DNA from: a bacterium
GTDB taxonomy: Bacteria; RBG-13-66-14
Assembly (NCBI GenBank): GCA_035528375.1
Contig: DATKYS010000036.1
Span: 1-32,879, forward strand
DNA length: 32,879 bases
Reading direction: 5' to 3'
Both the position numbers and the translations under genes were made by a program. The notes beneath the pieces are model-generated. The model saw nothing but the letters and a program-made list of their open reading frames with translations, was not told the origin of the DNA and ran no database searches. Of this stretch, positions 5,675-27,468 are shown piece by piece. The number at the start of each line of letters is the position of its first letter. Within the stretch, counting starts at the first letter, position 1.

Positions 5675-5700
5675 ATATTCGAAGGGAAAGAAGGTGGACG

Positions 5701-6351
5701 ATGAAAAACGTATTGCAGGCAGTGGTGTTGATTCTAATAATTTTAGCTTTTTCAGCATCTTCTGGAGACATCCTTCTAACCACACAAATCCCGTCCCAAC
5801 CTGATTTGGATACACTGTGGGCATACGAATTCCTCTATAGTGAGGATTTGGATGCTGTCGGCTCATGTGAAGACTATCATTCGACGGATGATTTTCAAGT
5901 TGGTGATGCTACGTTAAAAGGATTTGAGTGTTGGTGTGTTTATAGTGTTGGAGGCCCTGTTTACTCATTTTTACTCACGATATATGAAAACAACAACGGA
6001 CATCCCGGAAACACAAACTGGTCAGCTCATGTCACTAATGTGACGTTTACAGATACTGGATATGAAGATCCACACATACCTGGAGCTCCAATTTTTCATT
6101 GTGAAATGCTGCTCGATGAACAAGATTACTTGTATTTACCCGAATATGAAACATACTGGTCAGAAATATACCAGGAGGAGTTGACTTACTTCAATTGGAC
6201 ATGTGACGGGTACTACGATGGAAATCTACACCAGGACACGGGCCACGGTTTTGAAGATACTCATCTCAACTCCTTCTTCGTCGTAAAGGGCAACTGGGGT
6301 TCTTCCGTCGAGGAAACCTCCTGGGGGGAAATAAAGGCCACATACGAGTAG
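5701..6351 (+). CDS. Secreted protein of unknown function, compositionally atypical
   Basis: The product is 216 residues. The first about 20 residues (MKNVLQAVVLILIILAFSASSG) are a clear Sec signal peptide. The mature part is rich in aromatic, Asp and Asn residues and has five cysteines, one pair as CWC. The STDDF, TIYENNNGHPG and FFVVKGNWG segments resemble the beta-sandwich proteins found in large families in some uncultured bacteria; I do not recognise a named domain. The body (5701 to about 6250) is strikingly A/T-rich in codon choice compared with every gene around it, except the cassette at 25161-26404. The last about 30 codons, ending in SWGEIKATYE, return towards host-like composition. 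It has its own promoter and terminator. It is likely exported; function unknown. Confidence 0.85.
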   Translation: MKNVLQAVVLILIILAFSASSGDILLTTQIPSQPDLDTLWAYEFLYSEDLDAVGSCEDYHSTDDFQVGDATLKGFECWCVYSVGGPVYSFLLTIYENNNGHPGNTNWSAHVTNVTFTDTGYEDPHIPGAPIFHCEMLLDEQDYLYLPEYETYWSEIYQEELTYFNWTCDGYYDGNLHQDTGHGFEDTHLNSFFVVKGNWGSSVEETSWGEIKATYE

Positions 6352-6365
6352 CCGTTTAAACCGTG

Positions 6366-23740: not shown

Positions 23741-25106
23741 GGTCGCCGCCCGGATCGTACACCTCGTCGTCCTCCACCGTCTGGCCGGCCAGCTTCCTCT
23801 CCAGGCGCTTCAGGCGGTACATGAGCGCCCCCCGCTGCCGGGCCCGGGCGTAGGGGTCGCTCACCACGCGGCCGCACCGCTGGATCGCCTCCTCGACCAG
23901 CCCCTTGGCGGCGGTCAGGTTCCGGAGGCGGTGCTCCAGAAACTTGGCCTCCTCCTCGTAGGGGCGGAGGTCGTAGGGGCCCCGGCGCAGGTGGTCCCAC
24001 AGCGTCCGAGCCTCGCAAAGCTCCCCGCGACGCTTGTGGTGGATGGAGAGCTCCCAGCGGGCCCGCCGTTCCATTTCCTCCGGCAGACCCACCGCGATGG
24101 CGGCGGACAGGAGCTCCCCCCGCCGGTCGCCCATCCGGGGCAGGTGGCAGCAGGCGTAGAGCTCCGCCGGGTCCTCGTAGCGCTCGAGGGGGTTTTCCGC
24201 CAGATGGAGGGCGCGGGCCGCGAGAACGGCCAGGGATTTGACATCGGTCTCGTTGTGGTAAAAAACCCGCGCCATGCGCTCAGCCACCGGTGCGCCCCGG
24301 AGGTAGGCGAAGTAGAGGGCGGGAATCTCCGCGCCGGGGACGTCATCGTCACGCTCCAGGCCCATCACCCCGCGCTCCACATCGGCCAGGGAGCAGCTCC
24401 CCAGGCGCGGCTTCCACAGGCGGCGGGCCCAGGAAAGAAGGTCCACGTGGGGCGGCTCGAGGTCCAGGAATTCCGGTCTGATACGGTTCAAGAGAAATCG
24501 CGTCTTGACCAGGGGCCAATCGAAGGCCTTACCGTTGTAGGTGACCAGGCCCGACGCGCCCCCGAGCGCGTCCGCCAGGATGTTCAAGAGGCCGCGCTCC
24601 GCCCCCGGGTCGTCCAGGAAGAACTGCCGCAGGACGTACTCGTCGCCCTCGAAGCCGCCCAGGCCGACCAGGAAGGGTAAGGTGCCGGTGCCGCCGGCGA
24701 GCCCCGTGGTCTCGGTGTCCAGAAAAACCGCGCCGGAGAAATCGAAGCCCGCGGGCGGCTCCCCCTCCACCAGGGCCAGGTTTTCCGGTGGATGGGCCAG
24801 AACGGCGTCGAGGGGGGTTCCGCCGTGGTGCTCGGCGGCGGGAAGGCGGCGCTCGACGATGAATACCCTGCCGAAAGGCGTATTCTCCCAGGCGCCGTCC
24901 ACCAGCTCCTCGATGGGTGCGTGGGAGGACCGCCGTACGGGCTCGGCGGGCAGCAGGTCCTCGGGCGGCACGGGGCGCCCCTTCGAGACCAGGAGCCGTC
25001 GGAGGCGCTCCCTGACCGATTCGGCGTCCCGGGTCACCTCGACCTCGGGGGGGGCCTCCGGTTTTCCGGTCAGGTCGGACAGGCGCTCGCGGAGGTTTTT
25101 CGGCAT
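23733..25106 (-). CDS. mrfB: MrfB/YprB-type exonuclease, RNase-H-like fold
   Basis: The product is 457 residues. The DEDD-type motif I is FLDTETTGL with D130 and E132, motif II YNGKAFDWPL with D196, and motif III YHNETDVKSLAV with D288, followed by about 160 residues of TPR-like helices with several Cys/His. The arrangement and the GTLPFLVGL sequence are typical of YprB. In Bacillus, YprB (MrfB) is an exonuclease that partners with the MrfA helicase in repair of mitomycin lesions. The gene overlaps mutL and is 54 bases downstream of the A/T-rich cassette on the same strand. Neither the ribosome site nor a promoter is clear in the spacer 25107-25160. Confidence 0.92.
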   Translation of the reverse strand: MPKNLRERLSDLTGKPEAPPEVEVTRDAESVRERLRRLLVSKGRPVPPEDLLPAEPVRRSSHAPIEELVDGAWENTPFGRVFIVERRLPAAEHHGGTPLDAVLAHPPENLALVEGEPPAGFDFSGAVFLDTETTGLAGGTGTLPFLVGLGGFEGDEYVLRQFFLDDPGAERGLLNILADALGGASGLVTYNGKAFDWPLVKTRFLLNRIRPEFLDLEPPHVDLLSWARRLWKPRLGSCSLADVERGVMGLERDDDVPGAEIPALYFAYLRGAPVAERMARVFYHNETDVKSLAVLAARALHLAENPLERYEDPAELYACCHLPRMGDRRGELLSAAIAVGLPEEMERRARWELSIHHKRRGELCEARTLWDHLRRGPYDLRPYEEEAKFLEHRLRNLTAAKGLVEEAIQRCGRVVSDPYARARQRGALMYRLKRLERKLAGQTVEDDEVYDPGGDHA

Positions 25107-25160
25107 GGCGGCGGTCGGGCGGTGGGCCGGCCTCCGGGGCCGCCCCGCCGGTGTGGGTAA

Positions 25161-25937
25161 TTAGGCGTTAAAAAGGGTTGGTTGCTGCTGTTTAGGAGGA
25201 GAAAAAACACCTAATACAATCCAATTCTGTGGATGTCTGATTGTAGTACCGAGGTAGAAATATGTATCTCTCTTAGGGGAGCAAAGATCACCTAGGAACT
25301 TTTGTTTGATTAAACGTACCGTATCCTCTTCTGAAAAATTGGCCTTTACCTTGAGGTAAAGAGCTCCCAATTCCCAATCCGTAATCAATACTTCATGACC
25401 CTTGCAATCTTTATCTATGCAAGTGAATTTGTACCGAAATTCATATGGGATTTTTTCTATTTTCTTTATTTCTTCCCCAAGGAATTGCTGTCGCATAATT
25501 TCACGTTGCTTTGGATTCCAGTCAATGTCTCCTTTTTTGCATGTAATATCGTCAATCGTTGACGGTTTGAATGTACATAACGATATGCCTGTTTGCTTCC
25601 TTGCCATTTGTAATTCATCCATACTTTTATAAACAATTGTACTTAATACTATTTTACATTTATCATCCCAGTCTGCAACATCGCTGATAATTTTCAAGGT
25701 ATCAAGCCTAGGCGTGAAACTTTCCTTTCGGTGATCAGTCGCCCGCTTGGTGGTTACACTAATCCACTGATATTTCTTGTATTTTTTATAATTATCTAGA
25801 TAACGAAAAGGAATAGGAAACAGGCGTATCCATTCTCCATTACGATCAATACCTGCAGTGCAAACGACCTCTTTAACCTGTGGTTGTGGGTGGGGATAGG
25901 TTTTAACGGTTATCAATATCTCCTTTTCTTCCCACAT
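25161..25937 (-). CDS. Dual-OB-like hypothetical protein paired with DUF488, with C-terminal QPTLF
   Basis: The product is 258 residues. Start ATG 25937 follows GAGAGGTG; an open frame reaches further back but overlaps the DUF488 gene. The N-terminus EILITVKTYPHPQPQVKEVVCTAGI then GEWIRLFPIPFRYL resembles proteins I recall as dual-OB-domain family members encoded next to DUF488. The middle carries C-x4-C-x2-H (CIDKDCKGHEVLITDWELG), a possible zinc site. The last residues KQQQPTLFNA contain QPTLF, which fits the bacterial beta-clamp-binding pattern QxxLF. It is strongly A/T-rich, unlike its GC-rich neighbours. It lies 11 bases after the DUF488 stop, so the two are one transcription unit. Function unknown; nucleic-acid-related role inferred. 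Confidence 0.8.
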   Translation of the reverse strand: MWEEKEILITVKTYPHPQPQVKEVVCTAGIDRNGEWIRLFPIPFRYLDNYKKYKKYQWISVTTKRATDHRKESFTPRLDTLKIISDVADWDDKCKIVLSTIVYKSMDELQMARKQTGISLCTFKPSTIDDITCKKGDIDWNPKQREIMRQQFLGEEIKKIEKIPYEFRYKFTCIDKDCKGHEVLITDWELGALYLKVKANFSEEDTVRLIKQKFLGDLCSPKRDTYFYLGTTIRHPQNWIVLGVFSPPKQQQPTLFNA

Positions 25938-25948
25938 AGCCACACCTC

Positions 25949-26404
25949 TCAAATGTGTATTACCTCGCAGTTGTATTCTGATTCTAAGACCTGCGCGATT
26001 ACAAAACGATGACATAAATGAAAGTCCTGCTCGAAGCACATCAGCGCGGATTTTTTATTCAGGGATGTTTCAAGGACCAGTCTCAACGCATCTACGTTGG
26101 CTGGTATTACGCTGTCTAAATACCACCGAAAAAGATCTTCCAAAGACCATCTTTTTGAAAAATTCCGTTGCTCGCGTTCGATACCAAGGGATCGAAGTCC
26201 AATATAGGTGATGCAATGCTGTTCTAAACATTCACGGAGTGCTGTTTTTGAAAAGCCTTTCTTCCGTGAAATGGGATTCTTACGCACATCAATTACACAC
26301 TCAATCCGATGCTTAGTAAGTTTTTTGATAAATGCGTTAATGTCATCGGCTTCATAACCGATTGTAAAAAGCCGTGCTTCCGTGGATTGGTTATTGCTAA
26401 TCAC
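25949..26404 (-). CDS. DUF488-family protein
   Basis: The product is 151 residues with GTG start at 26404; the ribosome site is weak, so another start could be used. Family features visible: LFTIGYE (12-18), DVRKNPISRKKGFSK (39-53), LRSLGI (70-75), and the C-terminal cluster CFEQDFHLCHR (123-133), with conserved Cys, Glu, Cys, His and Arg. DUF488 has no firmly assigned biochemical role that I can cite. The gene is compositionally foreign (A/T-rich) and precedes the dual-OB-like gene by 11 bases. A weak promoter (TTCAAC-17-TAATCT on the minus strand, upstream of 26404) cannot be relied on. Confidence 0.87.
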   Translation of the reverse strand: MISNNQSTEARLFTIGYEADDINAFIKKLTKHRIECVIDVRKNPISRKKGFSKTALRECLEQHCITYIGLRSLGIEREQRNFSKRWSLEDLFRWYLDSVIPANVDALRLVLETSLNKKSALMCFEQDFHLCHRFVIAQVLESEYNCEVIHI

Positions 26405-26427: not shown

Positions 26428-27468
26428 TTACGGTTGAGGCGGCTCCGGTTGAACCGGCTCGGCCGGTTCCCAGACCTCCAGATCGAAAACCTCGACGGTG
26501 TGGGAGCCGGTGTTGGCCAGGTACAGCCGCCGGTTGTCGTAATCCAGCGCGATGCCCTCCGGGGACAAAAGCGGCGTGCCGTCGTCGGCGGTCACGCGGG
26601 TCTCGTAGAGGAGCGTCCCGTTCTCGTGGTACAGGCGGAAGCCGTCGTTCCAGCCGTCGGCGATGGCGACCACACCCCCGTCGCAGTCCAGGGCGAAGGG
26701 CGGGCGGAGACCGGTGGAAAAGCTGGAAAGCACCCGCCCCCGGTAGTCCACGTGAAGCACCAGGCCGTCCTGGGTCAAGACCCAGAGCGAGCGGTCATAA
26801 TCCATGGACATGTCCGCAATCTCGGTGTGACCGCCCAGGTCATCGCCCAGGGGAGTGTACACCTGGGTCAGGTTGCCGCGTCCGTCGAACTCGTAGAGCT
26901 CCTCCCCGGCGGCGATCCAGAGTTCACCGGCCCAGTTGGCCGCCAGCGCCCCCGGCACACTGGGGGCGTCGCTGATGCCGGAGAGCGTGCTGTCGTCGCG
27001 CAACAGGCGGCCGGTGCCCGCCGTGGCGGGGTAGCTCTCCGTGACGACGAAGGCCGTGGAGACGTCGGTGAACTTGAACACCGTCCCCGCGGAGGGGTCG
27101 GCCAGGTAGACGTCGTCCTGGTGGCTCACGGCGAGGTCGGTGGGGCGGAAGGCCCGCTCGCCGCCGCCGAAGTCGTAGTCGTACTGCTGGATGACCCGCC
27201 CGGCGGGGTCGAACACCTGCACCCGCAGGTTGCCGGCGTCCAGCACCATCAGGTCGCCGAAGTAGTCCAGGGCGAGGTCGGTGGGGTTGATGAGCTCGCC
27301 CAGGCGGGTCCCGTTGAAGCCCCAGGTGGTGTAGTGGTACACCCCCACGGCGCCACCGGGGTTCAGGCGTTCGTCCTCCTTGCCGGTAAGCCCACCCCCG
27401 CCTTCCATAGTTAGCTGGCAGGCGGTGAGGAGGAGCAGCGACAGGGCGACCAGGCTCGTTGTTCTCAT
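26428..27468 (-). CDS. NHL-repeat beta-propeller lipoprotein
   Basis: The product is 346 residues. A signal peptide ends in lipobox LLTAC (residues 13-17), so it is predicted to be a lipoprotein outside the cytoplasm. The mature part consists of repeats with INPTDLALDYFGDLMVLDAGNLRVQVFD, FRPTDLAVSHQDDVYLADPSAG and SPEGIALDYDNRRLYLANTG, the NHL propeller pattern of about 40-50 residue blades; I count about six. No enzyme motif is seen, so a binding or scaffold function is assumed. It is downstream of mtnP by 48 bases on the same strand. The stop at 26428 abuts the A/T-rich cassette. Confidence 0.85.
   Translation of the reverse strand: MRTTSLVALSLLLLTACQLTMEGGGGLTGKEDERLNPGGAVGVYHYTTWGFNGTRLGELINPTDLALDYFGDLMVLDAGNLRVQVFDPAGRVIQQYDYDFGGGERAFRPTDLAVSHQDDVYLADPSAGTVFKFTDVSTAFVVTESYPATAGTGRLLRDDSTLSGISDAPSVPGALAANWAGELWIAAGEELYEFDGRGNLTQVYTPLGDDLGGHTEIADMSMDYDRSLWVLTQDGLVLHVDYRGRVLSSFSTGLRPPFALDCDGGVVAIADGWNDGFRLYHENGTLLYETRVTADDGTPLLSPEGIALDYDNRRLYLANTGSHTVEVFDLEVWEPAEPVQPEPPQP

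Follow-up and report, generated by a model that had tools for sequence, protein, structure and literature searches.

Two-gene units that couple a DUF488 protein (M19A) with an OB-fold protein (M19B) are catalogued in PADLOC as PDC-M19, one of many candidate phage-defence systems and one for which no mechanism is given. The DUF488 family is widespread, but its activity is not settled; work on the rhodanese-phosphatase superfamily by Burroughs and Aravind (NAR Genom Bioinform 2023) reportedly predicted that enzymes of the DUF488 clade process DNA ends in conflict systems. An archaeal DUF488-HTH ParB fusion binds CTP (PMC12704722). PDC entries derive from a guilt-by-embedding approach and are mostly unvalidated (PMC12988326), and no published account of PDC-M19 was found in our literature search. 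The replication clamp, for its part, is the target of the SocAB toxin-antitoxin system: the toxin, SocB, acts on the hydrophobic pocket of the clamp and is neutralised by the Panacea antitoxin SocA (PMC8832971, PMC12795458). The literature search found no publication that combines a clamp-binding motif with anti-phage defense. Clamp-related toxicity in phage Adephagia was considered as a parallel and discarded as irrelevant, since the putative clamp involved is that of the phage itself.

The window analysed here (the whole stretch of 32,879 nucleotides) is an entire contig (G000:C36) within a 144-contig bacterial assembly, and it contains a 1.24-kb A/T-rich cassette with this two-gene architecture (Table 1). 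The DUF488 protein matches PDC-M19A (PDLC04505) with an E-value of 8.2e-40 over profile positions 143–293, and the OB protein matches PDC-M19B (PDLC04508) with an E-value of 5.3e-70 over positions 3–269. The two genes are adjacent, as in the PDC-M19 architecture, which places the pair within this catalogued candidate kind. A preliminary description of the DNA had proposed a DNA-maintenance or defence-type module and a candidate undescribed system; 'undescribed' falls away because the pair is already catalogued, and 'defence-type' applies insofar as a PADLOC candidate is matched by both genes. What is new is the probable link to the replication clamp, of which we found no description for this pair. 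Our best reading, to which we assign a probability of about one half, is a two-gene mobile module for conflict, in which docking on the replication clamp brings a DUF488 enzyme to replicating DNA.

Table 1. Features of the cassette and its downstream junction (window coordinates).
Feature	Position	Strand	Basis
A/T-rich inserted cassette, DUF488 gene then dual-OB gene	25161..26404	-	GC 0.39 vs 0.67; empty and filled sites
DUF488-family CDS, 151 aa, short form without N-terminal extension (PDC-M19A)	26404..25949	-	GTG start; PF04343
Dual-OB (DuOB-like) CDS, 258 aa (PDC-M19B; PHROG 25907)	25937..25161	-	ATG start
DUF488 D39-V-R41 motif, D and R invariant	26282..26290	-	Alignment; 83/83 partners
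DUF488 C123-F-E125 ... C131-H-R133 motif, presumed active site	26006..26038	-	Alignment of partners
Degenerate internal motif QQFLG, OB protein residues 150-154	25476..25490	-	Most homologues QxxLF here; loop pLDDT about 71
C-x4-C-x2-H (C173, C178, H181), possible non-universal metal site	25395..25421	-	16/50 homologues
C-terminal clamp-binding-like motif QPTLF, OB protein residues 252-256	25170..25184	-	Conservation and shuffles; tail pLDDT 66
Downstream junction with mrfB 5' region	25107..25160	-	Alignment of G000, G001, G002 and G003

Carriers and gene orders of the pair

Searches from the window protein yielded 90 loci in whole genomes, genome contigs, IMG/VR viral contigs (36), plasmid records (23) and Gordonia phages. 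The pair was found on chromosomes, plasmids, phages and archaeal plasmids, in both bacterial and archaeal hosts, and its distribution was patchy, with 18 positives among the 386 genomes of one sample and 14 among the 379 of another. The DUF488 gene adjoins the OB gene in 82 of the 90 loci, with the DUF488 gene first in 48, a convergent order in 31 and the OB gene first in 3; unpaired loci are mostly fragments or short loci. Persistence of the pairing across three gene orders suggests joint function rather than mere co-transcription. Among archaea, the Haloquadratum DUF488 partner lies about 0.8 kb from the OB gene, and no DUF488 partner was present within the 5-kb flanks of the Natronococcus OB gene. 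A viral scan with the Sulfolobus OB protein as query returned no relative. In Gordonia phage Nymphadora, the pair sits between the immunity repressor and the integrase; gene 42 (L011:5825-6277), annotated as a HipA toxin, matches the DUF488 profile and has gene 43 as its partner.

The neighbours of the pair were diverse, including many housekeeping or unrelated genes, some restriction-modification genes and, in viral contigs, phage genes. The survey revealed no constant third gene, and defence-gene enrichment near the pair was modest. Carriage on plasmids, phages and viral contigs, together with the PDC-M19 matches, is what leads us to read the pair as a conflict module, and a function in conflict between mobile elements is probable.

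A predicted DUF488 enzyme with variable N-terminal modules

The window DUF488 protein matches PF04343 with an E-value of 3.4e-24 (86.2 bits, gathering cut-off 22.2), and its AF2 model has a pLDDT of 93. The model weakly matches the protein phosphatase TpbA and tetrapyrrole-type methylases, which is in line with a Rossmann-like rhodanese/phosphatase relation; the fold search gave no PDB match below E 0.01, and a PDB sequence search with the DUF488 and OB proteins found no relative of either. The C-x-E..C-H-R motif is strict in 80 of the 83 DUF488 partners, the remaining three being archaeal with a longer insert. These alignments lead us to predict that DUF488 is an enzyme of Rossmann-like type whose D-x-R / C-x-E..C-H-R site is conserved. 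That it acts on DNA or nucleotides seems the somewhat likelier case, held with slightly less assurance than a role in conflict.

The window copy consists of DUF488 only, without a Panacea domain, and in the tree this short form groups with relatives whose DUF488 partner has a Panacea-like domain. With a profile of its own, an N-terminal domain was detected on 31 of the 48 partners in DUF488-then-OB order and on none in the other orders. Among the N-terminal domains of long partners, 15 of 29 match Pfam SocA_Panacea (PF13274), each weakly (best E 1.6e-4), and one whole partner scored 19.9 bits against the same family (cut-off 25.7). The best PDB match to a profile of this domain was DarG (7yk3_B, E 0.0065), around a YGPYS motif. 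The domain is a candidate new Panacea subfamily, and its fusions to DUF488 occur at loci L091, L096, L098, L100-L102, L008-L010, L033, L034, L037 and others. Two Streptomyces partners begin, by inspection, with an XRE-like HTH, and the plasmid partners from Sulfolobus and Haloquadratum have a fused ParB_N-HTH_ParB-DUF488 architecture. Archaeal plasmid fusions of the ParB_N-HTH-DUF488 type that adjoin the OB gene are annotated as partition proteins (L012:3927-4973, L116:4930-5976 and L121:6088-7167).

The Panacea-like, HTH and ParB domains on DUF488, together with the SocA/SocB precedent of a Panacea antitoxin and a clamp-pocket toxin (PMC8832971, PMC12795458), are the reason that a clamp-directed toxin-antitoxin deserves weight as an alternative. 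The OB protein would then be the toxin, occupying the clamp pocket, and DUF488 the antitoxin, the two stabilising mobile elements and possibly aborting infection; a mobile two-gene unit whose genes often overlap would suit such a role. We nevertheless consider it unlikely, given that both the convergent order (31 loci) and the forms with DUF488 alone differ from what is typical of toxin-antitoxin operons, and that the Panacea matches are weak per sequence. All DUF488 partners, moreover, retain an intact enzyme-type site, which is beyond the needs of a binder, and strict C26, R38, D68, R70, E72 and W188 in the OB protein are beyond those of a simple clamp blocker.

A protein with two OB folds

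The AF2 model of the second product (pLDDT 91.4, pTM 0.87) has two OB folds. Its Foldseek matches include telomere end-binding protein, RPA, Teb1, LEF-3, POT1/CST and HIN DNA sensors, all of them multi-OB proteins, with E-values down to 3e-5 and low TM-scores. The protein matches PHROG 25907 (E 1e-48) and gave no match in Pfam or NCBIfam, Pfam DuOB (PF22557) included, while 7 of 49 alignment members match DuOB (best 9e-8). The resemblance of the model to multi-OB single-stranded DNA-binding proteins and the DuOB matches of these relatives bear out the dual-OB-like reading made earlier.

Residues strictly conserved in 50 of 50 OB proteins include C26, R38, P41, D68, R70, E72, W188 and G230, and conservation to this degree exceeds what a plain single-stranded DNA-binding surface would need. 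The possible zinc site noted in the preliminary description is present in the window protein (CIDKDCKGH), but such a motif occurs in only 16 of 50 homologues, and a zinc finger was therefore rejected as a feature of the family.

The OB fold resembles those of end-binding single-stranded DNA proteins, and clamp motifs are typical of repair proteins; with purifying selection on both genes and insertion beside mrfB-mutL in the window, these features would also suit an accessory of DNA repair or maintenance, in which a clamp-recruited end-cleaning pair serves the host or the element and has no role in conflict. We regard this as improbable in light of the patchy presence of the pair, its horizontal spread and its carriage on phages and plasmids, and because the mrfB-mutL neighbourhood is not a shared one.

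Clamp-type motifs in the OB protein

We counted clamp-type motifs in 47 bacterial OB homologues with less than 60% identity and compared them with shuffled tails and loops. The pattern Q..[LMI][FLWIM] was present within the last 12 residues of 30 homologues (shuffled tails: mean 1.8, maximum 7), or 32 with the hexameric form included, and Q..[LMI][FL] was present in one internal loop of 36. Both motifs together occurred in 24 of the 47 (shuffles: mean 0.13, maximum 2), and 44 had at least one, with almost none elsewhere in the proteins. The QxxLF peptide to which the preliminary description drew attention, naming its absence from homologues as grounds for refutation, is therefore conserved far above chance. 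Position 3 is usually S in the tail motif and D in the loop motif, followed by L and F at positions 4 and 5; these preferences match the published clamp-binding consensus QL(S/D)LF, which also has a looser form (PMC11139829), and we count them in favour of a clamp-type motif. The window protein itself deviates, with a proline at position 2 of the tail motif and an internal motif that lacks the final F, and a few homologues have no recognisable tail motif.

The replication clamp of archaea is PCNA, and three of the four archaeal OB homologues compared end in PCNA-box-like peptides, namely GIDKWLQ and GIDRWL in two Sulfolobus-type plasmid homologues and QPGLDSF in Natronococcus; the fourth, from Haloquadratum, has no PIP-like tail. 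The Sulfolobus-type tails are close to the C-terminal tail of Dpo4, AIGLDKFFDT, which we take to be a PCNA box. The Dpo4 tail was checked in PDB entry 1jx4. A peptide type that switches with the clamp type of the host, as seen among these four proteins, would be hard to explain without clamp binding.

Both motif sites fall in flexible, low-confidence parts of the OB model, where confidence is lowest at the tail. The internal motif comes after a predicted helix and Q150 is nearly invariant (45 of 50 homologues), as might be expected if the QxxLF peptides were structural or chance features. This explanation is very unlikely, however, considering that the tail motif is retained behind linkers of differing length, that so many homologues have a motif with almost none elsewhere in the proteins, and that the archaeal homologues switch to PIP-like tails. 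Judged from the conservation of these peptides, the OB protein very probably binds the clamp physically.

Horizontal acquisition and insertion of the cassette

The GC content of the cassette is 0.392, compared with 0.669 for the remaining window, and GC3 is 0.41 and 0.35 for the two genes. The flanking genes on either side (encoding an NHL protein; mrfB and mutL) are ordinary and GC-rich. Our coordinates agree with the position, strand and A/T-rich codons originally reported for the cassette, with the 11-base gap between its genes, and with the NHL stop at 26428 and the mrfB start at 25106. The OB gene has a GAGGTG ribosome site and its product ends in QPTLFNA. Another A/T-rich stretch, at 5700-6360 of the window (GC about 0.42), holds a single ORF (5701..6351, + strand, 216 aa) with a signal-peptide-like start, flanked by a SelB-like gene and an ABC-transporter-like gene; by inspection it is unrelated to the cassette.

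In another genome of the same genus (G001), the cassette occupies the identical site, whereas in two further genomes of the genus (G002 and G003) the NHL-mrfB gap is only about 100 bases and no copy of the cassette was found; the cassette is therefore an insertion. Alignment of the four genomes showed that the inserted stretch took the place of the NHL gene's final bases and ends just short of the mrfB upstream region, and in G001 the NHL stop (TGA) and the DUF488 GTG start overlap. At the downstream junction, 19 bases with a TATAAT-like element are present in G001 (contig C113) and absent from the window, with a possible effect on mrfB expression.

The tree of OB proteins does not group proteins of the same host family or phylum, except for those of G000 and G001 and, on a long branch, G004. 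Together, the contrast in composition, the empty site in two genomes of the same genus and a phylogeny that does not track the hosts support the view that the cassette, a recent insertion, was horizontally acquired, as had been proposed. Both genes are under purifying selection, with a dN/dS of about 0.2 for each between G000 and G001. Between the same genomes, dS is 0.07 for the OB gene and 0.25-0.27 for mutL, mrfB, NHL and MTAP, which suggests a more recent exchange of the OB gene, perhaps of this gene alone.

The preliminary suggestion that the pair works with MrfB and MutL, with which it shares orientation and adjacency in G000 and G001, can be dismissed as accidental neighbourhood, since NHL and mrfB are adjacent without the pair in G002 and G003, other family members carry the pair on different contigs, and elsewhere it lies beside unrelated genes.

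How a clamp-docked conflict module might act

A two-gene conflict module carried on mobile elements and directed to the clamp might act as follows. The OB protein would use the QxxLF tail at its C-terminus to dock on the bacterial beta clamp (DnaN), most relatives adding the second QxxLF loop as a contact, and its two OB folds would grip single-stranded or end-containing DNA, thereby keeping the DUF488 partner at replicating DNA. There the pair would most likely modify or process the DNA ends or nucleotides of an incoming phage or plasmid, or else, once triggered, block the fork. The modules at the N-terminus of DUF488 (Panacea-like, XRE-HTH, ParB with HTH, or none) may serve as a self-restraint, regulator or DNA-targeting part, with antitoxin-like control. 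Against this reading we count the modest defence enrichment, the Haloquadratum protein without a PIP-like tail and the lack of a PDB fold match below E 0.01 for DUF488.

More tentatively, and at slightly less than even odds, the bacterial and archaeal pairs may form one clamp-guided family for immunity or competition, in which the beta-clamp peptide is exchanged for a PCNA box and DUF488 is delivered to replicating DNA. No described defence system operating by such clamp-guided delivery of an enzyme is known to us. For a family such as DUF488 and a candidate such as PDC-M19, the conserved clamp-docking peptide, often doubled and PCNA-like in archaea, provides a testable claim, in which the replication fork is the place of action of the pair. 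Were this true, mobile elements would be exploiting the clamp, which marks DNA under replication, either to direct an enzyme against rivals or to halt replication.

Comparison with known systems

Compared with the longer M19A profile of PDC-M19, the short DUF488 copy of the window has no counterpart to the initial ~140 positions. With respect to the Pfam families DuOB (PF22557), DUF488 (PF04343) and DUF488-N3a (PF22751), DUF488 is recovered above cut-off, whereas the window OB protein is missed by DuOB. The clamp is likewise the target of SocAB (Caulobacter) and of RipA (Rosmer, Streptococcus pneumoniae) (PMC12795458, PMC8832971), and the Panacea domain of SocA apparently also occurs on many DUF488 partners. 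However, no SocB homology was detected in the OB protein, SocA has no DUF488 enzyme-like domain, and the convergent order is common in the present family. The likeness to DarTG lies in the DarG domain, the best PDB match of the long-partner N-terminal domain, and in the fusion of an enzyme with a Panacea-like domain in one protein, although neither a macrodomain nor a DarT-like toxin was detected here. Finally, while the bacterial partners have no ParB, the Sulfolobus and Haloquadratum partners share the architecture of the archaeal ParB-CTPase fold-HTH-DUF488 proteins.
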